This document shows positions 1,570 to 43,102 of a DNA stretch of 64,000 nt, piece by piece. The DNA is from Phytophthora colocasiae. Taxonomy: Eukaryota; Oomycota; Peronosporomycetes; Peronosporales; Peronosporaceae. The notes beneath the pieces are model-generated. The model saw nothing but the letters and a program-made list of their open reading frames with translations, had not been told where the DNA came from and did not search any database. Position 1 is the stretch's first letter; the number at the start of each line of letters is the position of its first letter. A program made the position numbers and the translations under genes. The stretch spans positions 806,001-870,000 of the forward strand of contig JAGKQI010000100.1 of assembly GCA_018806915.1 (NCBI GenBank), written 5' to 3'.

Positions 1570-3222
1570 ATGCCGAAATCCCCAGAGTCAAACAAGAAAG
1601 CCATCGTTGGTCGTCTCCGCGCCCGCCTGGACTCCATGGCCAAGTCCAGCGACGCGGACAAGTCTCTCGCCGCCCAAGTGGACTTCTACACGCAGCTCCG
1701 TTCTCTCCTAGCCATTAACGACGCCTCCACAGGCCTTGAAGCCCTCGATAACCTCGCTCTCTCCATCGTCACTGCTGACGGGACGGTTCCTTCCGTTCTT
1801 AGTGAAGTAGTAACGCTCCTACCCGCTCCGGACTCCATGCGATCAGGCAGTCCTCCGCCACATTCCCTCTTCAATCCGTCCTCCTCTTCCAAGCGTCCAG
1901 CCACCCGAGACTCCTCCAAGTCCAGCCCTCTAGCCAAGAAGCAACGCACCAGCAGCTCGTCATCTCCATCTCCCGCGCCCAGCAAACTGGCTTACAAGTT
2001 TGAGTTGCCGCGCGATATTCCCAAGCCCATCAAGAACGACATCAACAAGATCCTCACGGAGGCCACCGAGCGAGGTAAGGCTCCGTTCCGTCTCGCGTAT
2101 CCATGGTCCCAGCAACGCGCCTGGTACGACCCCAGCGAGTATCCCGACCTCTACCTCTCGCACTACCGTTTCTGGATGAGACACCGCTCCGTCTTCTTCG
2201 ACTGCGCACTCTACGCGCCCACCGACAAGGCCGGCGCCCGGCGCAAGCAGAAATCCGCCGCCGTCCCAGCTCGGCTCCGATTCATCAGCAAGAACATCGA
2301 GACCTTCGGCTACTACGACTTTCTCGACCGTCTTGAGAACGGCACCCACGACACGCTCATGTGGTACGGGGGCAAGGCCGCCACTCACTCAGCTGCAGCC
2401 GCCAAGGCCCAGTCCGACTCCTCCGCCCCAGCTCAGTCCGACCTCGCAACACTATTCCGCCGTGACCGTTCGCGTTATGAGCGTACCGTGGCCCGCGCCC
2501 TCGACCCTCTCTCTGTGGACGAAGACGGCTACTCATCCGTCCCTGATCTTCTCGAGCAGACTCAAGCACTGGACCCCACTCGCCGACCCCATCTCCGCCT
2601 CTCCGACGTTGCTTTGGCTCGTATCGTGCTCGACGTCAACGGAGGATCCCCTCCGACCGCAAGTTGGGTTGGCAACCGGTCCAGCGGCGTCTGGAAGCGC
2701 CTCCTCTCCGACCGTACCCTCCGTCCCGTCCAGATCGACGTGGCCAAAAGCGTCCTGAACGGCACGCACACCGTGGACTTCGACGACAAGCCGTTCAAGC
2801 TCTCCGATCAAGGAGACGACGACTCCGATTACGAAGACGAAGACACGGGAGAGCCCACGATTCTTCCTCCGTCCCCGCCCATCGACGGAGCTTACCCAGC
2901 CGAAGACTCCGACCAAGAAGAAGACTCCGACGAAGAACAAGAAGACCCTTCTCAAGAAGATGAAGAAGAAGACGAAGACAAGGAGACCAGCGACGGCCCC
3001 GACGACGACAAGTCCAGCGATTACCACGGCTCCGACGAAGACAAGCCTCGCTCCACCAAGAAGGACGACAAGTCCAAGAAGACTTCCCCCGACAAGAAGG
3101 AAGACAAGCCCAAGAAGTCGTCCCCCGAAGACAAGAAGCCCTCGTCCGAGTCGAAGAAGACGGGCGGCTCACCATCTAGCACCACCGCCGCTTCTCCCGC
3201 AGCCTCGCCTTCCACCAAGTAA
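1570..3222 (+). CDS. Antisense ORF of Gypsy-1 (550 aa, acidic/lysine-rich C-terminus)
   Basis: A long ORF on the strand opposite to gag-pol, starting at an ATG with consensus context. No minus-strand ORF of comparable length overlaps it, so it is not a shadow of pol. The N-terminal 130 residues are Ser/Pro/Lys-rich with a possible nuclear localisation patch (LAKKQRT). Residues about 140-420 look globular, with aromatic-rich segments such as YPDLYLSHYRFW. The last 150 residues alternate Asp/Glu blocks with Lys/Ser repeats, as in many chromatin or nucleolar proteins. I recognise no family. It converges with pol; a large hairpin lies 42 bp after its stop. Confidence 0.7.
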   Translation: MPKSPESNKKAIVGRLRARLDSMAKSSDADKSLAAQVDFYTQLRSLLAINDASTGLEALDNLALSIVTADGTVPSVLSEVVTLLPAPDSMRSGSPPPHSLFNPSSSSKRPATRDSSKSSPLAKKQRTSSSSSPSPAPSKLAYKFELPRDIPKPIKNDINKILTEATERGKAPFRLAYPWSQQRAWYDPSEYPDLYLSHYRFWMRHRSVFFDCALYAPTDKAGARRKQKSAAVPARLRFISKNIETFGYYDFLDRLENGTHDTLMWYGGKAATHSAAAAKAQSDSSAPAQSDLATLFRRDRSRYERTVARALDPLSVDEDGYSSVPDLLEQTQALDPTRRPHLRLSDVALARIVLDVNGGSPPTASWVGNRSSGVWKRLLSDRTLRPVQIDVAKSVLNGTHTVDFDDKPFKLSDQGDDDSDYEDEDTGEPTILPPSPPIDGAYPAEDSDQEEDSDEEQEDPSQEDEEEDEDKETSDGPDDDKSSDYHGSDEDKPRSTKKDDKSKKTSPDKKEDKPKKSSPEDKKPSSESKKTGGSPSSTTAASPAASPSTK

Positions 3223-3263
3223 CATCTACCTTTCTCGCGCGTCAATCAGCTCTCTCTCTTTCC

Positions 3264-3412: not shown

Positions 3413-3999
3413 CTAAGCCAGCAGTAAGTCGTCCTCGTTGGCTTCAGCATTAGCCTCCTCCAACCGAGGACTCCGGCGCCACTCTGGCAAACCCTTCTTT
3501 CTTCGTTCCGCCTGCTCATAGGCGTCCACTAGGGGACGGTACTCAGGCATGAGCTCCGACCTAGGGACCCATAACGTCTCGTAGCTCGCCGTCAACACTA
3601 AGTACTCGACCACTCTGTCCACTGTACGCTTCGCCACCACTTCGAGTAACGGAGAGTCTACTCCTGCGAGAACGGTATCGCTCCCGGCGACAGTTAATCG
3701 TTCCGCGAAGCTAGAATGGGGCAAATCTTCTTCCTCCAAAGGTCCGTCCTCCGCAGGTTCTCCGTCCCTCCTATCCCTTCGGGGACCTCGTCCAGGAACG
3801 GACGCGTCCACTTGCCACGGTACTTCTTCATGCGGTTCACATTGACCGTGACTACCCGGCTCGGATGTGTAGGGATAGCAACCCGGTACGCATTGTCATT
3901 CACTTTCTCGACAACACGGTACGGTCCGTGCCATGCAAACGCTAGTTTCTTCGTCCGTGCCTCACCTCGCTTCGCCCTGAACAACTGGAACACCCACAC
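3413..3999 (-). pseudogene. Gypsy-1 integrase C-terminus with chromo-like segment
   Basis: Two overlapping frames (3694-3999 and 3413-3811) continue the integrase. The first carries the integrase C-terminal SH3-like region with FAWHGPYRVVEKV and a KKYRGKW motif before the tail. The second carries YLVLTASYETLWVPRSEL, which resembles the middle strands of a chromodomain, then a charged tail. A frame change near 4000 separates it from the integrase core and another near 3780 divides the two pieces. It probably belonged to one polyprotein and is broken here. Confidence 0.65.
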
Positions 4000-5248
4000 T
4001 GGGTCGCCGTCCTCGTAAAACCACCGGCACTTGACCGTCTAACCGACGCTCATGACGGTCCTGGGCCTTCACCAACTGACGCTCCACCAGGAGCCGCGAG
4101 TTTCTCAGGGAACGGTGGAGTTCCCGACGGTACAGTGCCACCTCGTCACTTTTCCATTTCTTCCCCAAATTCAAAAATGCCACATCCAAAGGCAACACAG
4201 GGTCACGACCATACAACGAGAAGAAAGGAGAGTCGCCCAACGCCTCATGGTAGGCCGTTCTATAGGCGAATAGCACTCTAGGGAGGTACAAATCCCAGTC
4301 CGTCTGTGCCTCGTTGACATGCATCCTTAGCATGCCCAGTAGTGTTCCGTTGAACCGTTCCACTAACCCCTGGGTCTGGGGATGGTACGCAGCCCCAAAC
4401 AACTTCTTAATCCCCAAGATCTGGTAGAAGGACTTCGCGATCTCCGACGTGAAATTCGACCCTTGGTCACTCAGCAACCGTGACGGCACACCGTGCCGCG
4501 CGACCACTCCATTAATCATTGCTTCCACAAAAGTCATGGAGTCCAACCGTTCTACCGCGAACGCTTCCGCCCAACGCGTGAAGTAGTCCACAAACACTAG
4601 GATATACTTGTTCCTTCTCTCGGTCCTTGGTAACGGTCCCACGGAGTCGACCACTAACAGCGAGAACGGTCCGTTAAGGTCCGTTACCGGCATCCTTTGC
4701 ATCTGGCCAGCTCTCCACGGTCTAGCCCCTTTACCGCTCCCACAAGTATTGCATTCCCGCACGTACTCCGCTACGTCCTTCCTCCATCCTGGCCAGAACG
4801 CGTGTCTCCTCACCTTCTCTAGCGTCTTCGTCAGGCCCAAGTGCGACGACAAGACGTCCGCATGACAGTAGTGGAGGACGGTTTCCATGTAAGGCACGGG
4901 GACCACTGGCACGGTCAACGACCGTGCTGGCCCCACCCGGGCGGGTAAATTAACACGCCGTGTCAACATGCCGTCCTCGACAGCGTATCTAGGCCCCATC
5001 TGTACTACACGAGCACGCAGGTACGGATCAAGCGGAAGCGCTCCGTCCTTCAGGTAGGCCACCAAAGCTCGCACCCACGAAATTTTCTGCTGTTCGGCCA
5101 CGAACTGGTCGCGGTTCAGACCGAACCTATCCAAAGAAGACCTCGCGCGTTCCCCATCCTGCTCAACCTCAGCTTCCTCCCTCAACTCCTCGTGCGGCGG
5201 ATCGTCTACGTGTCCGTCCGCCTGCTCTCCTACGGCCGCTCCGTCCAT
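3962..5248 (-). CDS. Gypsy-1 integrase
   Basis: Contains the zinc-binding HHCC region (CHADVLSSHLG ... ECNTCGSGKG) and the catalytic core with the D-D-E triad in VVDSVGPL, LLSDQGSNF and GLVERFNG. It inserts the cDNA into the host chromosome. The N-terminal part is a Glu-rich linker from RNase H. The frame differs from the protease-RT-RNase H frame, with the switch close to 5235-5245, and changes again near 4000, so this copy cannot make a continuous Pol without recoding or correction of the indels. Confidence 0.9.
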   Translation of the reverse strand: MDGAAVGEQADGHVDDPPHEELREEAEVEQDGERARSSLDRFGLNRDQFVAEQQKISWVRALVAYLKDGALPLDPYLRARVVQMGPRYAVEDGMLTRRVNLPARVGPARSLTVPVVPVPYMETVLHYCHADVLSSHLGLTKTLEKVRRHAFWPGWRKDVAEYVRECNTCGSGKGARPWRAGQMQRMPVTDLNGPFSLLVVDSVGPLPRTERRNKYILVFVDYFTRWAEAFAVERLDSMTFVEAMINGVVARHGVPSRLLSDQGSNFTSEIAKSFYQILGIKKLFGAAYHPQTQGLVERFNGTLLGMLRMHVNEAQTDWDLYLPRVLFAYRTAYHEALGDSPFFSLYGRDPVLPLDVAFLNLGKKWKSDEVALYRRELHRSLRNSRLLVERQLVKAQDRHERRLDGQVPVVLRGRRPSVGVPVVQGEAR

Positions 5249-8200
5249 TTCATCGAAATCCGGCTCACCGGCCTTCTGCCTCCGTCCTCTTTCCCCCCGT
5301 AGTCAACATCACCGTCCAATTCGTACGGCTCCCCGACTGAAGGCGGAAGCGCGTCTCCGTCTTTCGGATTCAGCAGGTCCTGTATCGTCAGAGCAGCCAC
5401 TCGTCCCCTTGGCAGCCTCGAGAGACCATCCACGTGACCTAGCGACGTCCCAGGCTTGTGATGAACCTGGAACTGCAGGCTCGACAGCTCCATCGCCCAC
5501 CGTGCCAACTTAGCGTTTGAGGTACGGTTCCCAGGACTGAAGATCCACTTCAGGGCCTGGTGGTCCCTGAACAGATCAAACTCGCGCCGATCCAGGTAGC
5601 AGCGGAACTTCCTAGTCGCCCACACTACTCCCCAGCACTCGATCTCAGAGATGCCATCTTGGTTGTTTATCCAGTTCTTTTGCGACCCCGTGAGCAACTT
5701 GCTCGCGTAGGAGACGGCACGGTCACGACCGTCCACTTCTTGCATGAGGCAAGCTCCAACAGCGTACCGTGACGAGTCGACATACAACTTGAACCGCTTC
5801 TGACTGTCCGGGTACACCAGAATCGGTGGCTTCATAAGGGCACGTTTGAGCTGCCTAAAGGCAGACTCACAGTCCTCCGTCCACACGAACGGTGCATCCT
5901 TTACTTTCAACCGTTCCAAGGGCGCCGAAATCGAGGCGTACCCCGGGATGTAGCGTCGAAAGTAGCTAGTCAGTCCGAGAAACGAGCGGATCCCATGTAA
6001 GCCCACGGGTCTCCTCACATTCAGCACGGCCTTCACCTTCTCGGGGTTAGGAAGGACGCCCGAGGGCGTGACGATGTGTCCTAGGAACGCCACTTGGCTC
6101 CGTCCCCAGTGACACTTCTTCATTTTGAGCTTGAAGCCCGCCTCCCTTAACCTCGTCAAGACTTGGCGAACGCGTAACAGGTGCGTCGGGAAGTCCTTGC
6201 TGAATACTACGCAATCGTCCAAATAAACTAGGCACACTCGCCACTTCAAATCCACTAGAACCGTCTCCATCAACCGTTCGAACGCGGGTACAGCGTTACA
6301 GAGGCCAAAAGGCATAACGAGCCATTCGAAGAGGCCGTATTTGCACGTGAAAGCCGTCTTTGATACACTGTCCAGCGCCATCGGTACGTTCCAATACCCG
6401 GATGCGATGTCCATGGTCGAAAACAACTGGGCACCCCCGAGCACGTCCAAAATATCATCGATCAACGGCATCGGGTAACAGTCCTTCACCGTTACTGCGT
6501 TCAACTTGCGATAATCTATACAGAATCGGATACCACCGTCCGGTTTCCTTATCATGAGAACAGGGCTAGCCCACGGACTGTTCGATGGACGGATCAGTCC
6601 CGCGTCCAAGTACTGCTGTATTTCCGCTTCCATCACCTCTCCTTCCGCTACTGATACACGGTACGGTTGCTGTTTGATAGGCCGACTATCGCCCGTGTCA
6701 ATCTCGAAGTGTAGCAGTTCCGTCCGTCCCGGCATCGCCGAAGACTCGACAAACAGGTCACTGAAGTTGTCCAGCTCTGCTTCAAATATTCGCTTCTGTT
6801 CCTCCGTCAACCTCGACTGCGAAAAGTCAGTCTTGATCGTGGCTTTGTCAGGCGGCACTTCCGGCCGAGATTTCCGTTCCTTCTCAGCAATCTGATCTTC
6901 AAGCGCTCCTGTCACGGACTGCACTCGATCGTCCGTTTCTGTTGTCTCCGGGTTCCTCGGTACCGCTCCATCCTTCGTCTGCATCTGGCCGAAAGCCGAC
7001 TCCGGAACGACCGAAGCGCACGCAACCGGCGTACCACGGCGAATCCACCGTTCCTCTGTAGATGCGTTACAGACTTCAACTATGACTTGACAGTCCTCCA
7101 CAGTACTCAACGAGTGCGCCACACACAGTGTAGGGGGAAGGGATACAGCGCCTTCAATGAGCACCGTAGCCTTTTCCTCCGGTGTCCCTACTAACTTTGC
7201 CATGACTAAAGCCTGTCCTTTAGGCGGCAGGCGTATTGACTTCACCATCGTCGCCATGTAAGCGTCCTGTACAACCATACCCCCAAGGGGCAACACCTCG
7301 CCTGAGTCCTTAAGCAGGAGCTGACGCTCAGCCACATCAATGACCGCTCCGAACGCTCCAAGAGCGTCTACCCCCAGGATGGCGTCTACATGCAACTGAT
7401 CCGCGACTACCAAACTCAGCGAAATCTCCGCACTTCCCATTCGTAACGACAAACTCGCCCACCCTCGGATCTTCAACTGATGCCCGGAGGAGCTCTTGAC
7501 CGATCCTTCGTACGGCTTCAGCGTCCTCGTTGACCGTCCTAGCCGCTTCAGCACACGGCTATCTACCAAACTCAGTGTAGCTCCCGTATCCACGAGTAAG
7601 CGAGAAGGCAAACACTCAATAAATCCACTTGATAACGCTTCGAAGTTCCCAACAGCACACACCACGCGTCGACCGTCTTCAACCACAGTACATACTTCCA
7701 TTTCATCCATGTCTCCCTTCGACACGCCGAAACCGTCCGGCATCTCTACCGTGACAACCTCAACAAGGCCCGGGCGAGGGGGAGGCGCAACCGTTCCAGG
7801 CGGCGGTCCCACCACGTCCACGTAGCTTACCACATCTTCATCACTCAGCAACAGTTCAGCATTCATCAACACCTCTGCGTACGGTCTAAACATAGCCTCG
7901 AAGTCAATCTCAGGACGCTGCCGACCTCGTCTCTTAGCAGCAATCTCCGGGTCCTCTCTTACTTCTCTCCGTTCTATCAGTTTCTCCCAAATGATCGTCG
8001 CGTTCTTGTCGTAATATTCCATAGTCGTCGCTTCTAACCGTCCCCAATCCAAATTCCGAACGCTCCTGGAGGCAGCGACCACCTTCGCTAGTTTCTCCAG
8101 TTTGATCAGGTCCGCCTTCGGAACTTTATCACGCAACGGAGTGATTTCCTGTTGGAAGGCTTCCTTCAGGAACAAGTACACTGCACGTTGGACCACGGTC

Positions 8201-9255
8201 CTCGCCAAAGTAGGTGAAACGACGACACGGTTCCTCAGGACGGACTCCGGCTTCGTAGCCACAGTCCCTGCACTCGGCACTTGGACGGACGCCGCGACGT
8301 CCTCTAGCTGCGACAAGATATTAGCACTGACTTCCTCTTCCGTAGTAGATCCTGCCTTTGGACTCGCGTCTCGCTCTCTAAATGGCTTAGGTTTCTGTGC
8401 GCTGGGTTCCTTTAACACCGTTCGTCCCACTACCTGCACGACTGACGACTTGAAATCGCGGTTAGCACGCTTGGCTTCTCCGGTCTTCTCGAGCGTCTCG
8501 CGGAACCATCCCTGCCAGTACTCAGGCGAATCACCGCCTTCAGGGGACGCTCGCCGAGTACGCTCGACTACGTCGAGCGGGACGTCCAATAGAGAGGACT
8601 GTTCCTCGGTAGAGGGCTCTCGTAAAGATGCTGCGTTCAACCGTATCCGTTCCATAGTATCAGCTTCATCCAAAGGGTGCAAACGATCCTCAATTTCTTT
8701 TTCGTATTCTTCTGACTCGCTGAAAATCTCCGTTCCATCCTGGTCACCAGGTGTCCCTTCACGATCCCTAGACTCGAGAGCCTCAAGCTCCGCGTCCGTG
8801 AACAAGCAGTCTGTAGGGTGTTCCGCGGTTGACACGACGTCCGCTCCGTCCCCTACCTCGGCCCGTTCCGTTACTGAATCCGCTCGCTCCTCAACTTCGG
8901 CACCAGAGGCGTCGAAGAGGTCGAATGACAACTCCTCCTCCGACAGCTCGCCATCCCCGAGCACTTCCTCTTCCAGTAGGCCGTCTTCGACAGCCTCTTC
9001 CAACGTGTAGGCGGGCTCCGCCGACTCACGGGTCGCTTTACCACCCGCTTCTACCTCATCGACGAACCGCACTGTCTTCTTTCGACGTTCACCGTTCTTT
9101 TCCACACGGGCGTCTTCCTTTCTCTCCGTTCCTTTTTCTTCAATCTTCATTTTCTTCTTTTGTCTCTTTTTCTCTGCATTCCGCGCGGTTTTCACCGTCC
9201 CTCGCGGCTTCTTCTTTTTCTTCTTTTTCTCGTTCATCTCACTCTCCGTCACCAC
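5230..9255 (-). CDS. Gypsy-1 Pol: protease, reverse transcriptase, RNase H
   Basis: A 1341-codon open frame. A Lys-rich then acidic N-terminal region of about 500 residues precedes an aspartic protease motif LLVDTGATLSLVD. The RT follows, with FCIDYRKLNAVTVKD, a STMDIASGYWNVPM motif and a VCLVYLDDCVVFS catalytic box. RNase H follows, starting KRFKLYVDSSRYAVGACL with the later DHQALKWIF motif. The listed start is a GTG; the frame opens just after the gag stop at 9371, so translation from gag needs recoding or re-initiation. It ends in a frame change before the integrase. Confidence 0.92.
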   Translation of the reverse strand: MVTESEMNEKKKKKKKPRGTVKTARNAEKKRQKKKMKIEEKGTERKEDARVEKNGERRKKTVRFVDEVEAGGKATRESAEPAYTLEEAVEDGLLEEEVLGDGELSEEELSFDLFDASGAEVEERADSVTERAEVGDGADVVSTAEHPTDCLFTDAELEALESRDREGTPGDQDGTEIFSESEEYEKEIEDRLHPLDEADTMERIRLNAASLREPSTEEQSSLLDVPLDVVERTRRASPEGGDSPEYWQGWFRETLEKTGEAKRANRDFKSSVVQVVGRTVLKEPSAQKPKPFRERDASPKAGSTTEEEVSANILSQLEDVAASVQVPSAGTVATKPESVLRNRVVVSPTLARTVVQRAVYLFLKEAFQQEITPLRDKVPKADLIKLEKLAKVVAASRSVRNLDWGRLEATTMEYYDKNATIIWEKLIERREVREDPEIAAKRRGRQRPEIDFEAMFRPYAEVLMNAELLLSDEDVVSYVDVVGPPPGTVAPPPRPGLVEVVTVEMPDGFGVSKGDMDEMEVCTVVEDGRRVVCAVGNFEALSSGFIECLPSRLLVDTGATLSLVDSRVLKRLGRSTRTLKPYEGSVKSSSGHQLKIRGWASLSLRMGSAEISLSLVVADQLHVDAILGVDALGAFGAVIDVAERQLLLKDSGEVLPLGGMVVQDAYMATMVKSIRLPPKGQALVMAKLVGTPEEKATVLIEGAVSLPPTLCVAHSLSTVEDCQVIVEVCNASTEERWIRRGTPVACASVVPESAFGQMQTKDGAVPRNPETTETDDRVQSVTGALEDQIAEKERKSRPEVPPDKATIKTDFSQSRLTEEQKRIFEAELDNFSDLFVESSAMPGRTELLHFEIDTGDSRPIKQQPYRVSVAEGEVMEAEIQQYLDAGLIRPSNSPWASPVLMIRKPDGGIRFCIDYRKLNAVTVKDCYPMPLIDDILDVLGGAQLFSTMDIASGYWNVPMALDSVSKTAFTCKYGLFEWLVMPFGLCNAVPAFERLMETVLVDLKWRVCLVYLDDCVVFSKDFPTHLLRVRQVLTRLREAGFKLKMKKCHWGRSQVAFLGHIVTPSGVLPNPEKVKAVLNVRRPVGLHGIRSFLGLTSYFRRYIPGYASISAPLERLKVKDAPFVWTEDCESAFRQLKRALMKPPILVYPDSQKRFKLYVDSSRYAVGACLMQEVDGRDRAVSYASKLLTGSQKNWINNQDGISEIECWGVVWATRKFRCYLDRREFDLFRDHQALKWIFSPGNRTSNAKLARWAMELSSLQFQVHHKPGTSLGHVDGLSRLPRGRVAALTIQDLLNPKDGDALPPSVGEPYELDGDVDYGGKEDGGRRPVSRISMKWTERP

Positions 9256-9370
9256 GGCAACCGTCTTCTCTTTCCCGAATTCCTCCTCAGCACGGTCACC
9301 GTTCGAGCCATTCGCCAGACAAGAGGAAGGAGTGGCTCGCTCCTCCCCTTCCTCACGTCCCCGTCAATTC

Positions 9371-10700: not shown

Positions 10701-10714
10701 AGGCGACTGAACGC

Positions 10715-12149: not shown

Positions 12150-12429
12150 TGTTAAGCCCAGCGTAGCTCTAGTCCATGTCTTCCGTCCTTGGCATCAGCT
12201 CACACGCAACCTGGCGCACGCTCCACGCTCTTTCTTGGCTGCGCAGACCTCGTTTCCCTAGCAATAGCGGCGCGCACTCACCCTCGTGCTGGCTGCGACC
12301 GGGGCCGGCTCGAACAACTCCTCGCCATACATATGGTCTTCCGCAATGCGACGGGTCGTGGATCGGGTTTCAGAGGGGGAACGGTCGGGACCGTACCCGA
12401 GACGGTGGCCACCGTTCTCACTCGGGACA
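12150..12429 (-). repeat. Gypsy-1 5' LTR
   Basis: 12168-12429 is the duplicate of 1-262. I extend it to 12150 because the ends are then TGT...ACA (TGTCCC at 12429 and CTTAACA at 12150 on the minus strand). The 12429 end is secure; the 12150 end is inferred from the dinucleotide rule. Confidence 0.75.
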
Positions 12430-30621: not shown

Positions 30622-31033
30622 TGCAGCGGGGCTGCGTAGGTGTGCACGGCACAGAGGAAGTTGGGTTGACTCGTAGAGTCCTGCTTGCAAGGCACTAGCC
30701 TTCGGTTCTATACAAGAACCAAGTAGTCCACTAAATACGGGACTCTCACAATCAGTGTCCCTATAATAAAGGAACTAACACTAATTATGTAAAATGCAAA
30801 CTGATTTTTATTTATTTTATTGCCCTAATCCTGAATGTAACGGATTTAGTATCTAACATACTAAATCCTAATCAAATGTAATGTGTGGCTCTGAGCTAAC
30901 AGCCAGCAACTGGCTACATGTGTGACGTGTGAGAAACACTATGTGTTGTACACGGATCTGTGACTTGTGACCTGGATGGTGTATACCACACCTATTGTAG
31001 CCAAGGCGCGCAGCGCCGTGTAACCCCGTTACA
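30622..31033 (-). repeat. Gypsy-3 3' LTR
   Basis: 412 bp, same length and apparently same sequence as 37907-38318. On the minus strand it runs TGTAACGGGG to CCGCTGCA. Confidence 0.95.
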
Positions 31034-33103: not shown

Positions 33104-33260
33104 CACTGCATGTGTAGGTAGGTTCTTAGCGTTTAATAAAACCTGGTCACCGACCTTAAATTCCCATACATTGCTTCTACCTTTTGTATCCGCTTGTTCC
33201 TTCTGAACGTCTTGGCTTTCAGCCATCGCGTCACGTACACGGCGTAATACGCTCCAATCT
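32942..33260 (-). pseudogene. Gypsy-3 integrase C-terminal domain
   Basis: Separate frame after the integrase core: RDAMAESQDVQKEQADTKGR, FKVGDQVLLNAKNL, LRPRFIGPFTVV and HPVFYVGLLKPYRDP, the GPF/GPY module typical of Ty3/Gypsy integrases. A one-base frame change near 33,245 disconnects it from the core. Unlike Gypsy-2, no chromodomain follows. Confidence 0.85.
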
Positions 33261-35600
33261 CACCGAGAGGAAGTCATCGACTTGTTTACGCACAGCAGAA
33301 GGGCTGATATCAGCAAGCTCGGAGTCGAGCGACGGCACAGCCTCTCCCCCACCAAGCCCAAGGCTACCGCGTGGCGGAGTGAGCGGAACGCGCGGGTGCG
33401 CAAGGCCGTTCACGTAGAACGGGGTGAAGCCTGTCGAGGCATGCACCGCATTGTTCATGGAGAACTCAACGAGAGGGAGCATAGCGCTCCAACGCTTCGG
33501 CGTTTCAGCGCATACGCTGCGGAGGATGTCCTCCAGAACGCGGTTCACGCGTTCGGTCTGACCGTCGGTCTGCGGATGGTCCGCCGTGGACATGTCCAGT
33601 CGAGTGCCCAGCACCTTGAAGACGGACGTCCAGAAGTGACCCGTGAAACGGGGATCTCGATCCGAGACAATGGTCTCAGGCAGCCCATGCTGGCGGAAGA
33701 CCCGATCGATGAAGATCGTCGCTGTACCAGCACCATCGACGGTGTCCGGCACAGCCGCTAGATGAGCCATCTTGCTCAGACGGTCAACAAAGACCACCAC
33801 GCCCGTGTTGCCTGCCGAGTCCTTCGGCAGGCCAAACACAAAGTCCATACTTATGGACTGCCAACACCCAGAGGGTACAGGTAAGCTCGCCAAAGGCGCA
33901 GCCGCATGCGGCGAGGGTTTAACCCGCTGACACGTCTCGCACGTGCGCACATATGTGCTGACCCACTTGTACATCTTCGGCCACCAGTACATGGAGCTCA
34001 CCGAGCCGTACGTCTTCTCGCGACCGAGGTGGCCGCCTGTGGGTGTGTCGTGAGCCTCATAGAGGATACGGTACTTCAGATCCTCATCGTGAGGAACTAC
34101 CACTCGTGGTGGGTCATCCTGACCCGTGCTGTAGTACAGCAGACCGCCTTCCAGGCTGTAGCGTTGGAGTCTCGCCTTTAGGCGTCGTGACAGAGTCACC
34201 TTTGAGTCTTCAAACTCATCGCTCCCCAGAGCTTGGAGCAACGCGACACAAGAGTCGTCCTGAGCGTACGCTGCTCGAACCATGTCCGTCACGGACGACG
34301 TCACCGAGGTGACATGAGATAACTCATAGTCCGGGCGACGTGATAACGCGTCAGCGAGGACGTTCTGCCTGCCAGGCTTGTACTTCACCTCGAAGTTATA
34401 CTCCGCAAAGAAGGAGAGCCATCGGGCCATCCTCTGCGAGAGGTGAGGCGACTGCGTCGCTGTGCGTAGTGACGCATGATCCGTGTAGATCACAAACGGC
34501 TTGGAGCCGAGCAGGTGAACCCTGAATTTGACGAGAGCGTACTTCATCGCAAGTAGCTCCTTGTCATGAACTGGATAGTTCTTCTCAGCAGCCTTGAGCT
34601 GTCGCGACTCAAACGCAATGACGCGTTCGCGCCCTTCGGCGTCCGCTTGTAGCAAAGCACTGCCGATGGCAAAGTCAGAGGCGTCACAGACGACAATAAA
34701 CGGACGAGCGGGGTCTGGCAGCGCCAGTATCGGTGCCTGAAGCAGGCTATCCTTGATACAAGTGAACGCATTCTCGTGCTCGGCACGCCATACCCACTCG
34801 GCATCCTTCTTAAGGAGATCCGTCAGTGGCCGAGCCAACTCAGCGTAGTTCTCGCTGTACTTGTGCAAGTAGTTGGCCAAACCCAGCCACTTACGCAAGT
34901 CCTTCTGGTTCAAGGGAACCGGCCAATCCACAATGGCCTTGACCTTTGCTGGATCAGCACGAAGGCCATGCTTCCCAATGAAGCACCCTAGGAAGGGGAT
35001 TTCTTCCGCGCCAAAGACGCACTTGTCTGCGTTGGCGTACAGCTTGTTCGTGCGCATGCACTCGAGCACAGCTCTCACGTGTTCCACGTGCACCTCAACG
35101 TCAGTCTTGCCGTGTTCGGCCTGACTGTGGACGAACACGTCGTCAAAGTACGTTTGTGCGAATGCCCGTAGGGGCCTGAACAGCTGCGTCACTAGACGAT
35201 TGAACGTTGCGGGCGCGTTCGAGAGCCCTTGGGGCATGACGAGCCACTCCCAGAGCATACCGCTCGGGGTGCTCACCGCTGTAAGCGGAATATCACTGGC
35301 TCGCATGAGCAGCTGATAGTACCCATCGACTAAGTCGAGTGCACTGTACATGGTGCAACCCACCATGTTGTTCTGAAGAACATCCTTCCTAGGAATCGGC
35401 GTCTGCGCCGGAATCGTGGCAGTGTTGAGCTTGTTAAAAGCGTGAACGATACGCCACTTGCCATTCGGCTTTCTGACACAGAACGTTGGCGCAGAATGCG
35501 GAGACTTGCTCTCGCGCACGAGACCCGCCGCGTGCTTCGCACGGAAGAAGGCGTCAATGACGTCGCATTGCTCTTTAGGAAGAGGCCACTGTCGGGTCAC
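33231..35600 (-). CDS. Gypsy-3 Pol: reverse transcriptase, RNase H, integrase core
   Basis: 789 codons. RT begins PLPKEQCDVIDAFF, with WRIVHAFNKLNT, SALDLVDGYYQLLM, WLVMPQGLSNAPATFNRL and a YFDD catalytic box (TYFDDVFVHS). RNase H has RPFIVVCDASDFAIGSALLQ and YTDHASLR. Integrase has HHCC (HDTPTGGHLG ... CETCQRVK), Asp in SMDFVFGLP, Asp in VSDRDPRFTG and Glu in DGQTERVNRV. It copies element RNA to DNA and inserts it. The start of RT lies in the next frame 5' of 35600; the protease frame ends at 35621. Confidence 0.95.
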   Translation of the reverse strand: MTRQWPLPKEQCDVIDAFFRAKHAAGLVRESKSPHSAPTFCVRKPNGKWRIVHAFNKLNTATIPAQTPIPRKDVLQNNMVGCTMYSALDLVDGYYQLLMRASDIPLTAVSTPSGMLWEWLVMPQGLSNAPATFNRLVTQLFRPLRAFAQTYFDDVFVHSQAEHGKTDVEVHVEHVRAVLECMRTNKLYANADKCVFGAEEIPFLGCFIGKHGLRADPAKVKAIVDWPVPLNQKDLRKWLGLANYLHKYSENYAELARPLTDLLKKDAEWVWRAEHENAFTCIKDSLLQAPILALPDPARPFIVVCDASDFAIGSALLQADAEGRERVIAFESRQLKAAEKNYPVHDKELLAMKYALVKFRVHLLGSKPFVIYTDHASLRTATQSPHLSQRMARWLSFFAEYNFEVKYKPGRQNVLADALSRRPDYELSHVTSVTSSVTDMVRAAYAQDDSCVALLQALGSDEFEDSKVTLSRRLKARLQRYSLEGGLLYYSTGQDDPPRVVVPHDEDLKYRILYEAHDTPTGGHLGREKTYGSVSSMYWWPKMYKWVSTYVRTCETCQRVKPSPHAAAPLASLPVPSGCWQSISMDFVFGLPKDSAGNTGVVVFVDRLSKMAHLAAVPDTVDGAGTATIFIDRVFRQHGLPETIVSDRDPRFTGHFWTSVFKVLGTRLDMSTADHPQTDGQTERVNRVLEDILRSVCAETPKRWSAMLPLVEFSMNNAVHASTGFTPFYVNGLAHPRVPLTPPRGSLGLGGGEAVPSLDSELADISPSAVRKQVDDFLSVRLERITPCT

Positions 35601-35620
35601 GCAGTACTTAGTTCCGGGAA

Positions 35621-36943
35621 CTAAGTCGATCTCATGACGAACGCCTCGGTCGGGAGGCAGGCCACCTCGGCGAATTCGCCAGCCTTCAAGGCATCGCCAA
35701 AGTCGGCGAAGGACATCTCTTCTAGCTCAAGGAGCTTGTCAACACTTGGCAAGTCGTCCAGCAGGACACTGCCTTCGGCACTACCGCCCACTCCATCAAC
35801 CAGAGTGTATAGCTGCCCACAGCCCTCCGGTGCGTCGGCACTTGACGTCACGGATGACTCAGACGCAGAGCGTCTCGCCCGAAGGGCCTTACGACGTCTT
35901 CGCCTAGCCGAAGATCGTCTACTCGACGGAGTACGTGCCGTCGCACAAGTTTCGGCCTCTCTCGGCCCAGTGTCAGGGACACTCAGCGATCCACTCGGTC
36001 GACGACCGATGCCGCTCAGCGGAGTACGTGCCGCTGCACAATCAATGACCGTAACAGGTCCAGTGTCAGAGACACTCAGCGATCGACTTGGTCCACGACC
36101 AGTATCACTCGACGGAGTACGTGCCGCCCCACAGTTCACGGCCTGGTAAGGCCCGATGCCATCGGCATCCAGTGACGGTCCATGACCGGCGTCACTCGGG
36201 TTACGTGAGCTTTGCCCACACGTTGACTCACTGCCAACCAGCGCTATGCGCTCAACAGGGCTGCGATCCTCGCACTCGGTGCTGTCCACTAACTCGGACA
36301 CACCGACTTCCAGCATCATTGCCGACTCGGCTCGATGCTCGCGCCAATAGCGCTTCTGCTTCCTAGCAGAGGTGGGTTCATGACTCGCCAAAGCTCCACT
36401 AGGAGAGAAGTGCGTAGCACCTAAGGTCTTCGACCTCCAGTCGATCCATGGCTCGTGGCGCTCCAGCCACGCCATACCAAGGATGAGGTCGTACCTCGAA
36501 TCCAGGTCCAAGACCAAGCAGCGTTCCACGCTGTCGAAGTCCAGGAACTTCAGCCGTAGGTCCATCGGGACCTTGGCTGCCGTGACACGGACGCCCGTCG
36601 CTAGACGGACAGTGACGGTGTCACCTCTTCGCGCTCGAAGCGCCTCAGCATATTGCTGACTACCCTCAACGGTGGAGCGTCTGACGTAGTTGCCAGACGC
36701 TCCTGAATCGATCAACACGATCCACGGCTTCTCGAAGCCCTTCACGTCCACATGGACGACCAGCAAGCCCTGCTTGCTCACACGTTCCGTGTTCAAGAGC
36801 ACGGAGCTCTTCGGGGCTGAGCCCCAGTGCCTCTCACGCACTGCAGAACTCAGTTCTTCCCAGTAGACCGCCCCGCGTCTACTGGGAGCCGTCGTTTCCC
36901 TGGGCAGAGCCCAAAGCGGGACCCGCGACAGGGTTGCGGCCAT
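35621..36943 (-). CDS. Gypsy-3 protease region
   Basis: 440 codons. The aspartic protease motif is VLIDSGASGNYVRRS, about 80 residues in, with a hydrophobic second half (DLILGMAWLERHEPWIDW). A long Ser/Thr-rich linker contains three imperfect repeats of about 20-25 residues near residues 260-335 (such as ARTPSSDTGRGPS, ARTPLSGIGRRPS). It overlaps the knuckle frame by 65 bp and changes frame before the RT near 35,640, where the other frame reads HEIDLVPGTKYCVTRQWPL. Confidence 0.85.
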   Translation of the reverse strand: MAATLSRVPLWALPRETTAPSRRGAVYWEELSSAVRERHWGSAPKSSVLLNTERVSKQGLLVVHVDVKGFEKPWIVLIDSGASGNYVRRSTVEGSQQYAEALRARRGDTVTVRLATGVRVTAAKVPMDLRLKFLDFDSVERCLVLDLDSRYDLILGMAWLERHEPWIDWRSKTLGATHFSPSGALASHEPTSARKQKRYWREHRAESAMMLEVGVSELVDSTECEDRSPVERIALVGSESTCGQSSRNPSDAGHGPSLDADGIGPYQAVNCGAARTPSSDTGRGPSRSLSVSDTGPVTVIDCAAARTPLSGIGRRPSGSLSVPDTGPREAETCATARTPSSRRSSARRRRRKALRARRSASESSVTSSADAPEGCGQLYTLVDGVGGSAEGSVLLDDLPSVDKLLELEEMSFADFGDALKAGEFAEVACLPTEAFVMRST

Positions 36944-37085
36944 TCTGGCCGGCGCGCTCTTTGCGCAGAGGGCAGTTGGGCCTCAGGTGTGTGGGACTAC
37001 CACACGTGTAGCACCGACGAGTGCTCATACGCTGCACCGCAGCTCGTAGCTCGGCTACTTCATCTTCAGCATAGCTGAGGTCCAT
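36879..37085 (-). pseudogene. Gypsy-3 Gag nucleocapsid (zinc knuckle)
   Basis: CYTCGSPTHLRPNC is a C-x2-C-x4-H-x4-C knuckle, preceded by [19 protein letters not shown], the usual Gag spacer. It belongs C-terminal to the capsid ORF but in the next frame; a one-base change near the GGGG run at about 37,095 explains this. Confidence 0.85.
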
Positions 37086-37855: not shown

Positions 37856-37889
37856 AGAGAAACAGTCTTCAACTCAGGAGTTGGATTGA

Positions 37890-37904
37890 CTACAAGTGCT
37901 ACCA
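37890..37904 (-). other. Gypsy-3 primer-binding site
   Basis: Minus-strand TGGTAGCACTTGTAG begins two bases inside the 5' LTR. The TGG start fits a tRNA CCA end, and the first eight bases fit an initiator-methionine type (TGGTAGCA). Confidence 0.75.
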
Positions 37905-37906
37905 GA

Positions 37907-38318
37907 TGCAGCGGGGCTGCGTAGGTGTGCACGGCACAGAGGAAGTTGGGTTGACTCGTAGAGTCCTGCTTGCAAGGCACTAGCCTTCGGTTCTATACAA
38001 GAACCAAGTAGTCCACTAAATACGGGACTCTCACAATCAGTGTCCCTATAATAAAGGAACTAACACTAATTATGTAAAATGCAAACTGATTTTTATTTAT
38101 TTTATTGCCCTAATCCTGAATGTAACGGATTTAGTATCTAACATACTAAATCCTAATCAAATGTAATGTGTGGCTCTGAGCTAACAGCCAGCAACTGGCT
38201 ACATGTGTGACGTGTGAGAAACACTATGTGTTGTACACGGATCTGTGACTTGTGACCTGGATGGTGTATACCACACCTATTGTAGCCAAGGCGCGCAGCG
38301 CCGTGTAACCCCGTTACA
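37907..38318 (-). repeat. Gypsy-3 5' LTR
   Basis: 412 bp, twin of 30622-31033; followed by GTTCG at 38319-38323. Confidence 0.95.
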
Positions 38319-39755
38319 GTTCGGGAGTCGGAATCTCTGGGAACCAAGATGGTTTCCAGGAAGTCGGCGGTCGAAAAGAGGTTAATATACCAGAGAAAGT
38401 CTGAAATCGGTGTCTGAATATCACAAATCCAGAACCGAGATACCTGACCTTCAGAGATAAACAACCAATACACAGAGTTCGAAAATATACAAATATATAC
38501 AGCCGTTCTTATTCTTTCTAGGCCCTTGAACGGTGGGCTAACACTCCAGGTCAACTAGGGACTCGCTACCAGACACCTGGTCTGTCTGGTATCCCTTTAC
38601 GTTCGCGCACCACCCTCTAGTATAGAGGGAAAATATGAACCAATACAATCGGCTATATATAACAGTCTACCTTGCACTCTGAAAACGACTGTCTAGTTTC
38701 CAGAGCCTGTCCAAACGAGCAATATGAAATGGGCTACCGCTAGAGACAAAACAAACGACCCAACTAGGATATGGAATAGGCGGGTCCTTTCAGGTCTCTA
38801 CGTTACCTGATCTCCACCTAAGGGGATTGAATTTGGTGGAGATCACACGACGTACGTGATGACGCAGTGGCTTGGATACCTCTCAAGCGGACTTGTACAG
38901 TAGCAAGCAAATTGAACTCTGTTTATCGTTTATCTTCCTCATAACTATCATATATGGTAACTCTCTTCTTCTTGTCGTCTTTTGCGTCCTTTATGCAGTC
39001 AGTCTTCATATCTCAGGTACTCTTGGTCTTTGTATACATCTGGTATTTTGACTTGGTCTCAGTATGCAGTCTGTGCAGCCGATCTCGATGGGTTGACAGG
39101 TAGAGACGTCATTACGGGGGATGTGCAGGTCAGTAATCACTTGAATGCGTGACTTGAACTTGGGTTCACTTGGTTTCAGTATGGTCTTGGATCTTCGGTG
39201 GTTTCAACATCTGGTATCCTGGTTTTCAGAGTCTGATGTCACTTGCTTTTCAGAGTCTTAGTCACTCAGAGTTAGAGATACCAGAGTCTTGAGTACGAAA
39301 CCAGAGTACGGAGCACCAATGCTTCAACGTACATGAAGATCTTGAGGGTTGCGCGGGTGCGCGGCGTCCGGCGCGCGATACTTGGTCTTTGCGGGTATAT
39401 ATATTGTGAATCCTTGAACCATCCATCGTCGCGCTGGACGGTAACGGGATGAGGTCTCTCAGAGATACGTTCTTCTGAGAGACTTTCCGCCAGAACTTAA
39501 GCACTCATCGTCGGGGAAAGTCCGGTGACCAGACAGAGTGTAGTTGACCTTCAGAGTTGTGCACACTCTGAAGTACACTTCTGGTCCTTTGGGCCCCTTT
39601 ACAGTCAGGCGAAGGTTTATCCACAATCTTCCACAGATGTCGCACGGGTACGGCCACGTCCCAAAGTCCCTTTCGCTTATAACCCATAGTATAACCAATC
39701 ACATCATAACGTAATATCCACCTGTCGCTCGAAAATCGGAATTAACATCATGTCA
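38319..39755 (-). repeat. Gypsy-2 3' LTR, main fragment
   Basis: Matches 53778-55218. Includes the second GTTCG. Differences include a missing CTCT relative to the other LTR near 38,956. The minus-strand LTR start TGACATGATG is at 39755. Confidence 0.95.
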
Positions 39756-39767
39756 ACCGCCCCTCCT
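39756..39767 (-). other. Gypsy-2 polypurine tract
   Basis: AGGAGGGGCGGT on the minus strand, directly before the LTR start TGACATG. Confidence 0.85.
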
Positions 39768-39810
39768 GGTCACGATCCATCAGTGCGGAACTTACTCCAA
39801 GCTGTGTATC

Positions 39811-42800
39811 ATGGCCAGGCCTATCAAACATTCTGATAGACGGTTTTCAGAGCGTAGCGTAGCTGCAACTCTTTGCCAGTTGCCTGGTTTTCAGAGTCCC
39901 TGGTGTCTTGTCGCACAATCTGATTCTCTCAGACTCAGAAACTTGAACTTGACTCGCCCAACAGGCGATCATTTTCAAACCTCCGTCCTTTCGCTCATGA
40001 CTGAGGAAACAAACACTTCCCTGAGCTCAAACGCCCCAGCGAGTGGGGTGGCAGGCGACGCCACAGGCACTTGTCCTGCTTCGGCAACTGCCAGTATATC
40101 GCGGGGTGGAGATGTTGGTTCGGCCACGTCGCCAGGTGGCAGCCCTAGCGCCCCAGCCCATGTATCCAAGCCTACAGACCCACAGGTCGATGGCCCGATT
40201 GAGGACCTCCCTGGTGGTGACATGAACGCGGCCGGTTCTGGTGATCTCTCGCCACCAGTGGTCTCACGTGGGGAATCTCGCTCTGAATTCTCTGAGGGAA
40301 CTCCTGGGGTCTTCAGACCGCGAGCCTTTAGTGCCCCACGGCTTTTGTCCACGGAGGAGGTCGATCGGCTGTTTCGTCAGGGTCTGGTGACACCCACAGG
40401 AGACCAAGTCACGGCGTTGGGGGACTCTGATGTTCCCCAGAATTATGTCGCTCCCAACGTGAAACCGGAGGGACGTGCCTTTCTGGTGAGTACCCCGGCG
40501 CGAGCTGAGGACTTCAGAAGAGGGCGCCACATAGCGAATGCGTATGGGGGCCCCTGTGTACTCGTGGGTTATGAGGCACTCACTGATGAAGACCTCCGGG
40601 AGCTGGAGCGAGTGATCCCAAGCTTCGATCCCGACGAGGTTGTGTCTCCATGTGCCCAAACTCCGGATGTACGCACGCTAGATGCTCTGACGTCATCTGT
40701 GGATGTTCGCCGGGAACTGGGATCTCTGGTTTCTCACGTCTCCCCCACCCGACTTGCCGAGAAGGTTTTTCGGACGGCTGGATGCTTGAAACTCATGGCT
40801 GCTGCTCACCGCCGCCTTCGAGAACGTGTTGGTTCTCAGAACGGCGTCGCCTTGATCGATGCGGCCGCAGCGCGCTCCGAGTGTGAAGAAATCAAGCGCG
40901 AGTGGGTACTCCACTGCCAATACTGGAAACACGAGCTCAAGTGTGCTCAACAAGACGCCGGTGTGGTAGAAGAACGCAAGGCTTCGGAGATTCAGGACCT
41001 CAAGGCTCACTACCAGGACCAAGTGGAAGCTCTGAAGTCAGACAAGGCGGCTCTGAAGTCCCAAGTCGCTGATCTTCAAGCGCAGGTCTCGATTCTGAAG
41101 TCGCGTCCTGAGGTCAAGCCCACAGATCCGTGGGGATTCTCAGAGTTCTTACAAGAGAATTCTGAAATCTCTGGTAATTGGGATCGGCTTCATGACCTTC
41201 TGGTGTCATACCAAGAGGACACCATCGTCCCTGAAAACTGGACGACTATCATCAATGTGACAGCCTTGGACGCGCGGAAGAAGCCCGCTCCTGACTTCAA
41301 GAAACGGCTCTCTGAAGAACGAGCTCGTCAGGCTGCCGAGTAAGCTGCGAAGGATACCAGGGTTCTGGATCTCACCCGCCCAAGTGCTACGGCCTCGGAG
41401 TCCAAGAGCGAGAGCCCACGGTATCTGTCATACCCGCCGAAGTCCCAGGTTCTGAAATCATCTCCTAAGCGGCCGTTCAAGTGGGACCTCAAGAATTTGC
41501 AGCGTCGTCCTTCCGGACACAAGCCCGTCGAAGACTCGGTGCTTTCGGCGAATGCAGGTTCCAAGGTGGCAAAGTCTGAAGTGCACAAGAGGCTCCCTGG
41601 TGACGTGGTCTGGAAAGAAGTCCGCCCTGACCTCCGCCAAGCTCTGCTGTCAGGGATCAAGTATGATAAGGCCATGGAGTGGTTAGCGTCTGACAAGGAA
41701 GCTCACAGTCTCTTTAGCAGTCCGGTTCTCGTCCAGACGTTGGTGAGTCTGGTATTTTCCCGTCGTCTGGATTCCACTCCTTGGGCCAAATATGTCCCTG
41801 AGGTCTACTACCAGATGGCTGATGAGGTGGTGGATCGTCACATCTCGGCTGGTACTGAGCCTGCGGCCTGGGGTGACCTGGATGGTCACGTGAATTACCC
41901 GGAGAGTGACGTTGAGTCCACTGCCGATGACCCCAAGGACGACCCTGATTACAAAGAATTTGGTGTGGTCGAATCTGGAGACGAAGATGACGACGGGAGC
42001 TCAGATGACGGTGCGTCTGACGACAGCGATTCCGAGAGCGACAAGTCTGAAGACAAGAAGTCTCAAGATAAGAAGTCTGGGAGCAAGAAGTCTGGAGACA
42101 AGAAGTCTGATGACCACCCACGTCCTGGCTCCAAACGTCCCCGGGACTCTGATGACGACTCAGACTCTGACGATGGACCTATCATCCCCACCAAGAAGTC
42201 CAAGAGAAGTATCGCATCCGTGAAAGCCCATACCAGTCCCAAATCTCGCCCGAAATCCACCAGTGGAAGTGGGTCGAAGTCCAAGGGTTCTTCAGGGAAG
42301 GCACGTAGTCTGGTATCCAAGCCCTACAATTCTCTGACGGTCAAGGAGCTCCAGGTGGTGAAAACACCAGACTGTGAGGCATCCTCCTGGTTGTACTATG
42401 GCATCAGAGTACAGCGAGTGAGCTCCACTAGGACCACCACGGGCCAGACATTGGGTTTCCCAGACTACGAGGTACACAAGCACTCATGTGCCATCCTCAA
42501 GAAGCGCTGGGACTCTGAGCGGTACTGTGCGGTCATTCGCAAGAAGCGCGCCCCTTGGGAAGTTATGTTCGACAACAGATTCTCAGAATTTTACTTCCAC
42601 AAGCGGGACGAACTGGGACCCATGGTGTTGGCTGACGTAGAAGACATTGTGCGCAGCATGAAGAAGCACGCTCAAGCCTTCTGGGAACGAACGCATTGGG
42701 TGACCATGGATGTTGAGGCTGACGACAAGTCTGCGGAGCTTCACAAGTACCGGTCCATGCGTCGAGCCGCCATGATTCGTCAACACAACGCCCTCATCCG

Positions 42801-43102
42801 AAAGGTCCTGGGGCACAAAGATTTCCCAGAGTCGTTGCTTTCAGAGCCTGGCATCTGGGTTGTCCCAGACAAGTCCTGCCCTTGGATCTGGCAAAATCCC
42901 AGAGTCACAGAGCTGGGGGGGGCCCAAGTGTCTGAGTCTGGAGACGCAACTGGGTGACTTGGATGCGATTGAGCCTGCTCGGATGCAATGGGCCACGGTG
43001 AATGTGGACGAAGAGTGGCTCCAATACGTCCCTGCTGACGTCAAGAAGGATCGTTTGACACCTACGGAGCGTTCCGAGAACCCGATCTCCCTTCGCTACT
43101 GA
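39811..43102 (+). CDS. Antisense ORF of Gypsy-2 (about 1,050 codons, one TAA inside)
   Basis: On the strand opposite to gag-pol, starting 55 bp from the LTR (or at the ATG at 39997, MTEETNTSLSS). The frame is open to 42957 except for one TAA at 41341-41343, and coding-like sequence shifts at a G8 run (42915-42922) to end at 43102 (NPISLRY). N-terminal 130 residues are Ser/Gly/Pro-rich. A coiled coil covers about residues 365-425 (EEIKREWVLHCQYWKHELK to LKSQVADLQAQVSILKS). An acidic block is followed by repeated DKKS/SKKS units and basic patches (KRPRDSDDDSD). A folded-looking C-terminal domain follows (SERYCAVIRKKRAPWEVMFD). No family recognised. Confidence 0.7.

Follow-up and report, generated by a model that had tools for sequence, protein, structure and literature searches.

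Antisense genes under purifying selection in three Gypsy elements of Phytophthora colocasiae

Do the long open reading frames that lie opposite gag-pol in three Gypsy elements of Phytophthora colocasiae encode proteins, and what might such proteins do for the elements? The sequence analysed, referred to here as the window, is a 64,000-nt stretch of assembly GCA_018806915.1 (JAGKQI010000100.1, positions 806,001-870,000, forward strand). An earlier note on this DNA had reported one such ORF in each of Gypsy-1, Gypsy-2 and Gypsy-3, here named E1, E2 and E3. Open frames are indeed present on the plus strand at 1351-3222 (E1), 31024-32775 (E2) and 39715-42957 (E3, with one internal stop), with gag-pol on the minus strand; the longest ORF opposite the antisense coding parts is 211 aa, in line with the claim that nothing comparable faces them. 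LTR pairs were found for all three elements, placing each ORF between pol and the 3' LTR as proposed, in the position and on the strand of the antisense extra ORFs termed aORF-3R, but the E1 ORF is not LTR-adjacent, a second gene intervening. The features are as follows.

1..262, minus strand: E1 3' LTR, extending left beyond the window (5' LTR at about 12016-12429; 99.5% identity over 412 bp).
91..1311, minus strand: E1 sense-strand extra gene in the env position, 406 aa, encoding a predicted multi-pass membrane protein (pN/pS, hydropathy, distant relatives).
1312..1569, no strand: E1 head-to-head intergenic region, 258 bp between two start codons (coordinates).
1570..3222, plus strand: E1 antisense gene, 550 aa from the ATG at 1570 (pN/pS, stop count, codon signature, model).
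3962..9363, minus strand: E1 pol, with protease, RT and RNase H at 5230-9363 and integrase at 3962-5302 (Pfam).
30622..31033, minus strand: E2 3' LTR, identical to the 5' LTR at 37907-38318.
31330..32775, plus strand: E2 antisense gene from the first in-frame ATG (30 copies, start and end analysis).
33231..36982, minus strand: E2 pol, in two frames (Pfam).
38319..39755, minus strand: inner part of the E3 3' LTR (outer part at 30370-30621, past the E2 insert; 5' LTR at 53531-55218).
39997..43102, plus strand: E3 antisense gene from the Met used by most relatives, with the end given in the earlier note (pN/pS, relatives).
43489..48933, minus strand: E3 pol, comprising its native RNase H plus another one (RVT_3), integrase and a chromodomain (Pfam).

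The antisense ORFs were compared among copies in the same 92.5-Mb genome (E1, n = 10; E2, n = 30; E3, n = 3). Changes in the antisense frame were concentrated at third codon positions in all three sets, with chi-square p values of 6e-19 for E1 (calculated from 11 copies, L018 included, where pN/pS used 10), 1e-7 for E2 and 7e-39 for E3, in which third positions account for 202 of 288 variable columns. The test for selection across copies that the earlier note had suggested yielded pN/pS values of 0.137 for E1 (10 copies), 0.281 for E2 (30 copies, 413-codon core) and 0.139 for E3 (3 copies), so that synonymous change outpaces non-synonymous change 3.6- to 7.3-fold in the compared copies. The codon signature of E1 runs from about 1570-1650 to about 3150-3222. 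The pol end of the same E1 copies gave 0.0070/0.0337 = 0.21, indicating that the antisense gene is constrained at least as strongly; the first ~150 codons of E3 are under weak constraint.

Stop codons at neutral frequency, which the note had taken as grounds for abandoning the idea, were not observed in the copies scored. The antisense frame contained 0 stops in the 10 E1 copies and in the E2 core of all 30 copies, and each other frame contained 5-18 stops per copy; a random-mutation control gave means of 10.3 (E1) and 10.6 (E2) stops, with 0 of 500 runs reaching zero. Stops were counted at the columns occupied by the window copy, where a frameshift does not register as a stop, and intact copies are favoured in these counts because the copies were chosen as best protein matches. 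Indels with a net change of frame affect 2 of 10 E1 copies, distally in the ORF; of the other 29 E2 copies, 6 carry them close to where the core ends. Conservation at the protein level and retention in most copies hold among the copies scored, which were picked starting from the ORF. Among the matches listed genome-wide, 32 of 42 distant E1-type ones (31-39% identity) and 53 of 76 for E2 were stop-free, the remaining 23 E2 matches carrying stops. The window copies of E2 and E3 are themselves damaged, the former by a distal frame break with a shifted tail that reaches about 32970, the latter by an in-frame stop and, towards the end of the ORF, a break of frame; intact E2 frames are present at other loci, and at least 19 loci outside the window carry intact E3 frames (1123-1148 aa).

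Among the best ~8000 candidates scored, relatives were identified for the antisense products of E1 (at least 53 proteins, 11 named species), E2 (at least 16 proteins, 6 named species) and E3 (at least 6 proteins, 2 named species). All named relatives among the matches listed belong to Phytophthora, no second genus being represented; one E1 match is nameless. The view of the earlier note, in which these ORFs are genes and not shadows of pol, is strongly supported by purifying selection, frames without stops and relatives in other species; all three are protein-coding genes under selection, and on this point we have next to no doubt.

No known domain or fold was recognised in the products. Searches gave no Pfam match at the curated cut-off, no Foldseek match with E ≤ 0.001 (the E3 model being poor) and only weak blastp matches to gag or other window proteins (best E 0.035); none of the three products has a hydrophobic segment exceeding the cut-off. 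No pair among them is detectably homologous, and the plan said to be common to the Gypsy-1 and Gypsy-2 products was not borne out, the acidic block and Lys/Ser repeats occurring in E1 and E3 and being absent from E2. The E1 product is modelled as a mostly helical body of ~410 residues followed by a disordered acidic and Lys/Ser tail.

The arrangement with integrase is recurrent. At 53 of 64 E1-type loci an integrase lies tail-to-tail with the antisense ORF and no more than 5 kb away, and at none is it on the ORF's 5' side; for the other 11 loci no integrase is listed within 5 kb. The distant E1-type integrases are 54-77%, mostly 65-70%, identical to that of E1. Tail-to-tail pairs number at least 21 among the 76 E2 matches listed, with 2 pairs otherwise arranged, and at least 41 among the 81 listed for E3. 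In one E1 copy, integrase (97%) and the membrane ORF (99%) are separated by just 855 bp, so the antisense gene appears to be absent from an element that was nonetheless copied at some time.

The E1 gene at 91..1311 had been missed in the earlier note, and its end extends into the 3' LTR. Its pN/pS is 0.18 (9 copies), with 27, 25 and 59 variable columns at codon positions 1, 2 and 3. Hydropathy, the sole basis for the membrane prediction, gives two segments over the usual cut and five at a looser cut, and E1 thus has a sense ORF with predicted transmembrane segments between pol and the 3' LTR, as expected of env. A search of Pfam to E 0.1 gave no match for this protein, nor did one of PDB to E 1. 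The membrane and antisense genes are divergent (head-to-head), an arrangement repeated in the same genome at 15 of 23 distant membrane-ORF matches, each facing a distant antisense match. The 258 bp between the two start codons are a candidate bidirectional promoter.

E2 is nested within the 3' LTR of E3, flanked by a 5-bp target duplication, and the E3 LTR pair shows 9 differences in 1688 columns, gaps included. The pol of E3 contains RT_RNaseH, RVT_3 and Chromo domains within 43489-48933, and by this domain content E3 appears Chronos-like.

The anatomy gives no backing to the proposal that the antisense genes are transcribed from the 3' LTR. The E2 ORF was said to start 57 bp from the LTR, but 31090 holds a TTG codon, and the frame has no ATG before 31330, which lies 297 bp inside. 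For E3, an ATG does exist at 39811, 55 bp from the LTR as stated, but in 5 of 6 relatives the annotated protein begins at the Met of 39997, 242 bp inside. The E1 start codon is 1.3 kb inside. The starts are thus 242-297 bp (E2, E3, with the earlier E3 ATG at 39811 possible) or 1.3 kb (E1) from the LTR. A scan for core promoter motifs, run with a more restrictive INR pattern than the YCAYTYY of the literature, lent no clear support to a promoter in these regions: a single INR-type match lies close to the start of E3, and the leaders of E1 and E2 are without any.

We propose, as the probable account taken as a whole, that the selected antisense genes would be expressed as mRNAs of their own and supply a nuclear accessory regulator. 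Each mRNA would arise from a promoter inside the element, in the 258 bp between start codons in E1 and in the 240-300 bp from LTR edge to start in E2 and E3, and would be convergent with the genomic RNA; we regard the chances of such an internal promoter as evenly balanced. The product may enter the nucleus and act on the element's own chromatin or transcription, by regulation or relief of silencing. This nuclear role, suggested by analogy, by the absence of hydrophobic segments above the cut-off and by the acidic, Lys/Ser-rich tails of the E1 and E3 products (that of E1 being modelled as disordered), is put forward tentatively as the likeliest one, and a single role for all three products is a guess because E2 has no such tail. 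Points that count against the account are the failure to match a known domain or fold, the E1 copy that appears to have no antisense gene, the frame-changing indels in some copies, the 11 E1-type loci with no listed integrase nearby and the 2 E2 pairs in a different arrangement.

The analogy is with the aORF-3R of plant Gypsy elements, of which accounts in PMC7264820 and PMC11963269 include Grande gene23, RIRE2 and Retand/TRP28. As far as those accounts go, the plant ORFs share position and orientation with those described here, are present in most copies and are conserved like other element proteins; the Grande antisense protein was localised to the nucleus (PMC7264820; PMC11963269), and nuclear action on element chromatin or transcription has been proposed for plant antisense proteins. 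Here, in contrast, the hosts are oomycetes and the three products are not detectably inter-related. Unlike Retand, E1, E2 and E3 show no TRP28 (PF04195) match in Pfam scans reaching E 0.1, or E 0.01 where the E1 alignment was used, and E1 has a divergent membrane-protein gene between antisense gene and LTR; in the Retand paper, sense ORFs of that region are without a putative transmembrane region. Boty (Botrytis cinerea / Sclerotinia sclerotiorum) is cited in the relevant part of PMC7264820 as a non-plant element with an aORF-3R; likened by description alone, it shares the occurrence outside plants and differs in its fungal host.

HBZ of HTLV-1 carries a bZIP domain, whereas no bZIP family is among the Pfam matches listed for the products described here, E3 giving a weak homeobox-associated leucine-zipper (HALZ) match below its cut-off. 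As outlined in PMC11963269, HBZ is likewise an antisense accessory gene near a retroelement 3' end; its promoter is placed in the 3' LTR in the corresponding part of PMC7264820, whereas the E1-E3 starts are 242 bp to 1.3 kb inside. Chronos is convergent with plant Tat elements (second RNase H) and with chromoviruses (chromodomain). These two marks, noted for Chronos in part of PMC5348765, recur in E3, where the native RNase H is followed by another of archaeal-like type and a chromodomain stands at the pol end; E3 additionally has an antisense gene of >1000 codons, and the word "antisense" is absent from the main text of that paper (PMC5348765). Relative to known antisense extra genes, the oomycete hosts, the unrelated proteins and the divergent membrane/antisense pair of E1 are new.

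Other explanations were weighed against this account. It is rather unlikely that the antisense proteins work in particles, assembly or transfer, with the E1 pair as an env-like module whose antisense product is a matrix-like helical partner. The E1 genes do adjoin head-to-head, together at the 15 of 23 distant loci mentioned, and a helical body plus tail is predicted for the antisense product, but E2 and E3 have an antisense gene and no sense ORF ≥200 aa between pol and LTR, resemblance to gag or window proteins stops at the weak blastp matches, and the E1 membrane protein is unmatched in Pfam and PDB. We consider improbable a role for the antisense RNA rather than the protein, pairing with genomic RNA, feeding small-RNA silencing and limiting copy number. 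Any antisense mRNA here would be complementary to the genomic RNA, both-orientation small RNAs from P. infestans LTR elements are described in part of PMC3522703, and a dsRNA role for plant elements is discussed in part of PMC7264820; selection acting on amino acids, at the 3.6- to 7.3-fold synonymous excess, is not predicted by an RNA-only role and disfavours it.

Host genes, or remnants of another nested element, may have been captured as passive riders, given that no convincing similarity to retroelement proteins was found. Against it, the matches listed contain uncharacterised Phytophthora proteins and no named host-gene relative, and the antisense ORF keeps one orientation relative to integrase at the 53 of 64 E1-type loci with an integrase listed, across relatives with mostly 65-70% integrase identity. 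We give passive riders very little credence, purifying selection ruling out passive cargo, and capture as an ancient origin is compatible with the preferred account. That the frames are open by chance, or shadow a coding frame on the opposite strand, has practically no chance of being right. GC-rich frames are sometimes open by chance, and a low ratio is also seen in frame -1 (E1, E2) or -2 (E3), but this opposite-strand frame holds 12-28 stops per copy and is therefore the shadow. The ratio is lower in the antisense frame, whose scored copies are stop-free except for one stop in the E3 window copy. Stop counts and ratios rule this reading out.

The account of selected antisense genes encoding nuclear accessory regulators can be extended to a broader claim, which we regard as speculative and on balance unlikely: oomycete Gypsy elements would have gained antisense genes repeatedly and independently in the slot used by plant Tat-type elements, the E1 slot being a two-way membrane/nuclear-regulator module and E1 itself a retrovirus-like element whose HBZ-type antisense regulator is of independent origin. 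At the level of annotation, the listed relatives, now hypothetical or uncharacterised proteins, could be renamed as retroelement genes, and the E1 gene pair contributes a membrane protein unmatched in Pfam or PDB. Small RNAs against LTR elements have been described in Phytophthora (P. infestans, in part of PMC3522703), and a single genome offers three unrelated proteins together with numerous stop-free copies, so that Phytophthora is a good test ground. If such gains recur in unrelated lineages and hosts, a gene convergent with the genomic RNA must offer a general benefit, which, if real, would probably be control over the element's own silencing or expression.

Three Gypsy lineages, represented in the window by elements E1, E2 and E3, each carry a selected antisense gene convergent with pol, and in E1 it has as its partner a sense membrane gene that is likewise under selection. 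All gag-pol domains detected in the three elements by Pfam lie on the minus strand. The non-transposon genes of the window (Rieske protein, anoctamin, UDPGP family and Myb) are long single open frames. The features of the elements are as follows.

1-262 (extending leftwards beyond the window) and about 12016-12429: E1 LTRs, 99.5% identity across 412 bp
91-1311, minus strand: E1 sense membrane ORF, in the env position, with the 3' LTR on one side and the head-to-head antisense gene on the other
1570-3222, plus strand: E1 antisense gene
30622-31033 and 37907-38318: E2 LTRs, identical pair with a 5-bp duplication
31330-32775, plus strand: E2 antisense gene
53531-55218, and 30370-30621 plus 38319-39755: E3 LTRs, 9 differences in 1688 columns
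39997-43102, plus strand: E3 antisense gene, counted from the second of two candidate start codons
49191-53611, minus strand: E3 ORFs upstream of pol, 1187 aa and 319 aa, no Pfam match up to E 0.01

E2 is nested within the 3' LTR of E3 (30370-39755), flanked by its 5-bp duplication, and E3 seems to be bordered by a 4-bp duplication. By Pfam, the E3 pol has RVT_3, a second RNase H, as well as a chromodomain, both given as marks of oomycete Chronos elements (PMC5348765), and the two ORFs upstream of it are probably an unusually long gag. A direct-repeat array at 60346-64000 (period near 550 bp, 7 copies) extends to the right end of the window.

Selection was scored on aligned copies in all six frames, counted in columns of a reference copy; the scored copies were the best-scoring protein matches, so that intact copies are favoured. 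The per-family dN/dS-type comparison proposed in the earlier note revealed purifying selection on each antisense frame, with pN/pS ratios of 0.137 for E1 (10 copies; pS 0.0763, pN 0.0105), 0.281 for E2 (30 copies, 413 core codons; pS 0.0315, pN 0.0088) and 0.139 for E3 (window copy and genomic copies L069 and L070; pS 0.188, pN 0.026). Variable columns at codon positions 1/2/3 numbered 45/41/202 in the E3 set. The third-position excess gave p values of 6e-19 (E1, 11 copies including L018), 1e-7 (E2) and 7e-39 (E3), which are guides only, as the copies share ancestry.

No stop was present in the antisense frames of the scored E1 and E2 copies, compared with 5-18 per copy in the remaining five E1 frames and 7-16 in the remaining E2 frames. 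Stops at neutral frequency, which the earlier note held would speak against genes, were simulated by mutating the reference at random to as many differences as were observed, a difference common to several copies being counted once per copy; the mean was 10.3 stops for E1 and 10.6 for E2, and none of 500 runs reached zero. The single E3 stop is in the window copy, with none in L069 or L070. Among all E2 rows 53/76 were stop-free, as were 32/42 distant E1-type rows. Frameshifts are invisible as stops in this scoring: frame-changing indels were found in the distal ORF part of 2/10 E1 copies, and single-base indels in the core of 9/29 other E2 copies, cancelling in three and changing the frame near the core end in six. 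E3 frames of 1123-1148 aa are open at 19 other loci, one with a stop inside the match.

The convergent layout recurs across the genome searched (92.5 Mb, 105 contigs). Among the matches listed, integrase lies tail-to-tail within 5 kb at 53 of 64 E1-type antisense loci, and no locus has it within that distance on its 5' side; the other 11 have no integrase listed. At least 21 tail-to-tail integrase pairs within 4 kb were found among the 76 best-scoring E2 rows, with two other placements among the matches listed, and at least 41 among the 81 best-scoring E3 rows, with no other placement among the matches listed.

The E1 minus-strand frame 91-1311 is also under selection (9 copies; pS 0.0934, pN 0.0167, ratio 0.18; variable columns 27/25/59), with 0 or 1 stop per copy versus 8-20 in other frames. 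Copy L011 was excluded because of an insertion; its inclusion gives a ratio of 0.48. Hydropathy analysis indicated two hydrophobic segments clearly, or five when the cut was relaxed; the C-terminal part is charged, and no match was found in Pfam or PDB. Relatives in the same genome (23 rows) share 21-26% identity; 15 form a head-to-head pair with a distant antisense row, and five of the remaining eight have an E1-type integrase 1.0-3.5 kb away on their own strand. To judge from these comparisons, the divergent pair is part of an old lineage, since distant pairs recur in the genome and the lineage's distant integrases share 54-77% identity with that of E1, in most cases 65-70%. In one E1 copy on another contig (C100:3200850-3204139), integrase (97%) and membrane ORF (99%) are separated by just 855 bp, and this copy apparently lacks the antisense gene though both neighbours are kept.

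The codon signature of E1 begins at about ATG 1570 and fades after about 3150-3222; most gene models shown for its relatives in other species begin at the same Met, and a few begin earlier. The E2 frame is open from within the LTR, and the sole in-frame ATG of the leader is at 31330. Constraint is absent from the 120-base segment before it (ratio near 0.9, copy L061 1642-1761) and present to some degree in two segments further upstream. E3 has ATGs at 39811 and 39997; the gene models of five of six relatives (from P. citrophthora and P. palmivora), which are predictions, use the second, and the frame is only weakly constrained before about 40465. A match to an INR-type core promoter, possibly by chance, occurs at 39969, 28 bp before Met 39997. 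The short start-to-LTR distance described earlier for E2 and E3 is not a shared feature because of these start positions, the E2 codon at 31090 being TTG.

The three antisense proteins matched no Pfam family at its cut-off and show no detectable similarity to one another, and the common plan suggested for the E1 and E2 products was not confirmed, E2 having neither acidic block nor Lys/Ser repeats. Among the matches listed, their named relatives are from Phytophthora; the best match is to P. capsici for E1 and to P. citrophthora for both E2 and E3. A 52-residue motif is common to P0030 (E1-type, P. idaei) and P0072 (E3-type, P. citrophthora; pair E 3e-6). The E1 AlphaFold model (38 sequences; mean pLDDT 65.2, several blocks >80) shows mainly helices in the body, over residues 1-100 and about 145-410, and its acidic and Lys/Ser tail, modelled with low confidence, is presumably disordered. 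A fold search with this model gave no convincing match. The E3 model is unusable, perhaps apart from a long helix at 288-368.

Antisense extra genes between pol and the 3' LTR are reported for plant Gypsy elements (PMC7264820, PMC11963269) and for Boty of fungi (PMC7264820). The literature searched yielded no report of such genes in oomycete elements, and the Chronos paper (PMC5348765) does not use the word "antisense" in its main text. As far as that literature goes, what is new is the occurrence in oomycete hosts, the set of three proteins unrelated to one another, and the divergent arrangement of the two E1 genes.

A role of the antisense transcript as RNA only is opposed by the selection, which acts on amino acids. 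Transcription from an antisense promoter within the LTR appears less likely given the distance of the start codons from it, above all in E1. We propose instead that the antisense gene is transcribed from its own promoter inside the element. The published parallel is the plant aORF-3R: gene23 of Grande has its promoter upstream, and its product is nuclear (PMC7264820). By analogy, the antisense protein would act in the nucleus, as a regulator or protector of the element.
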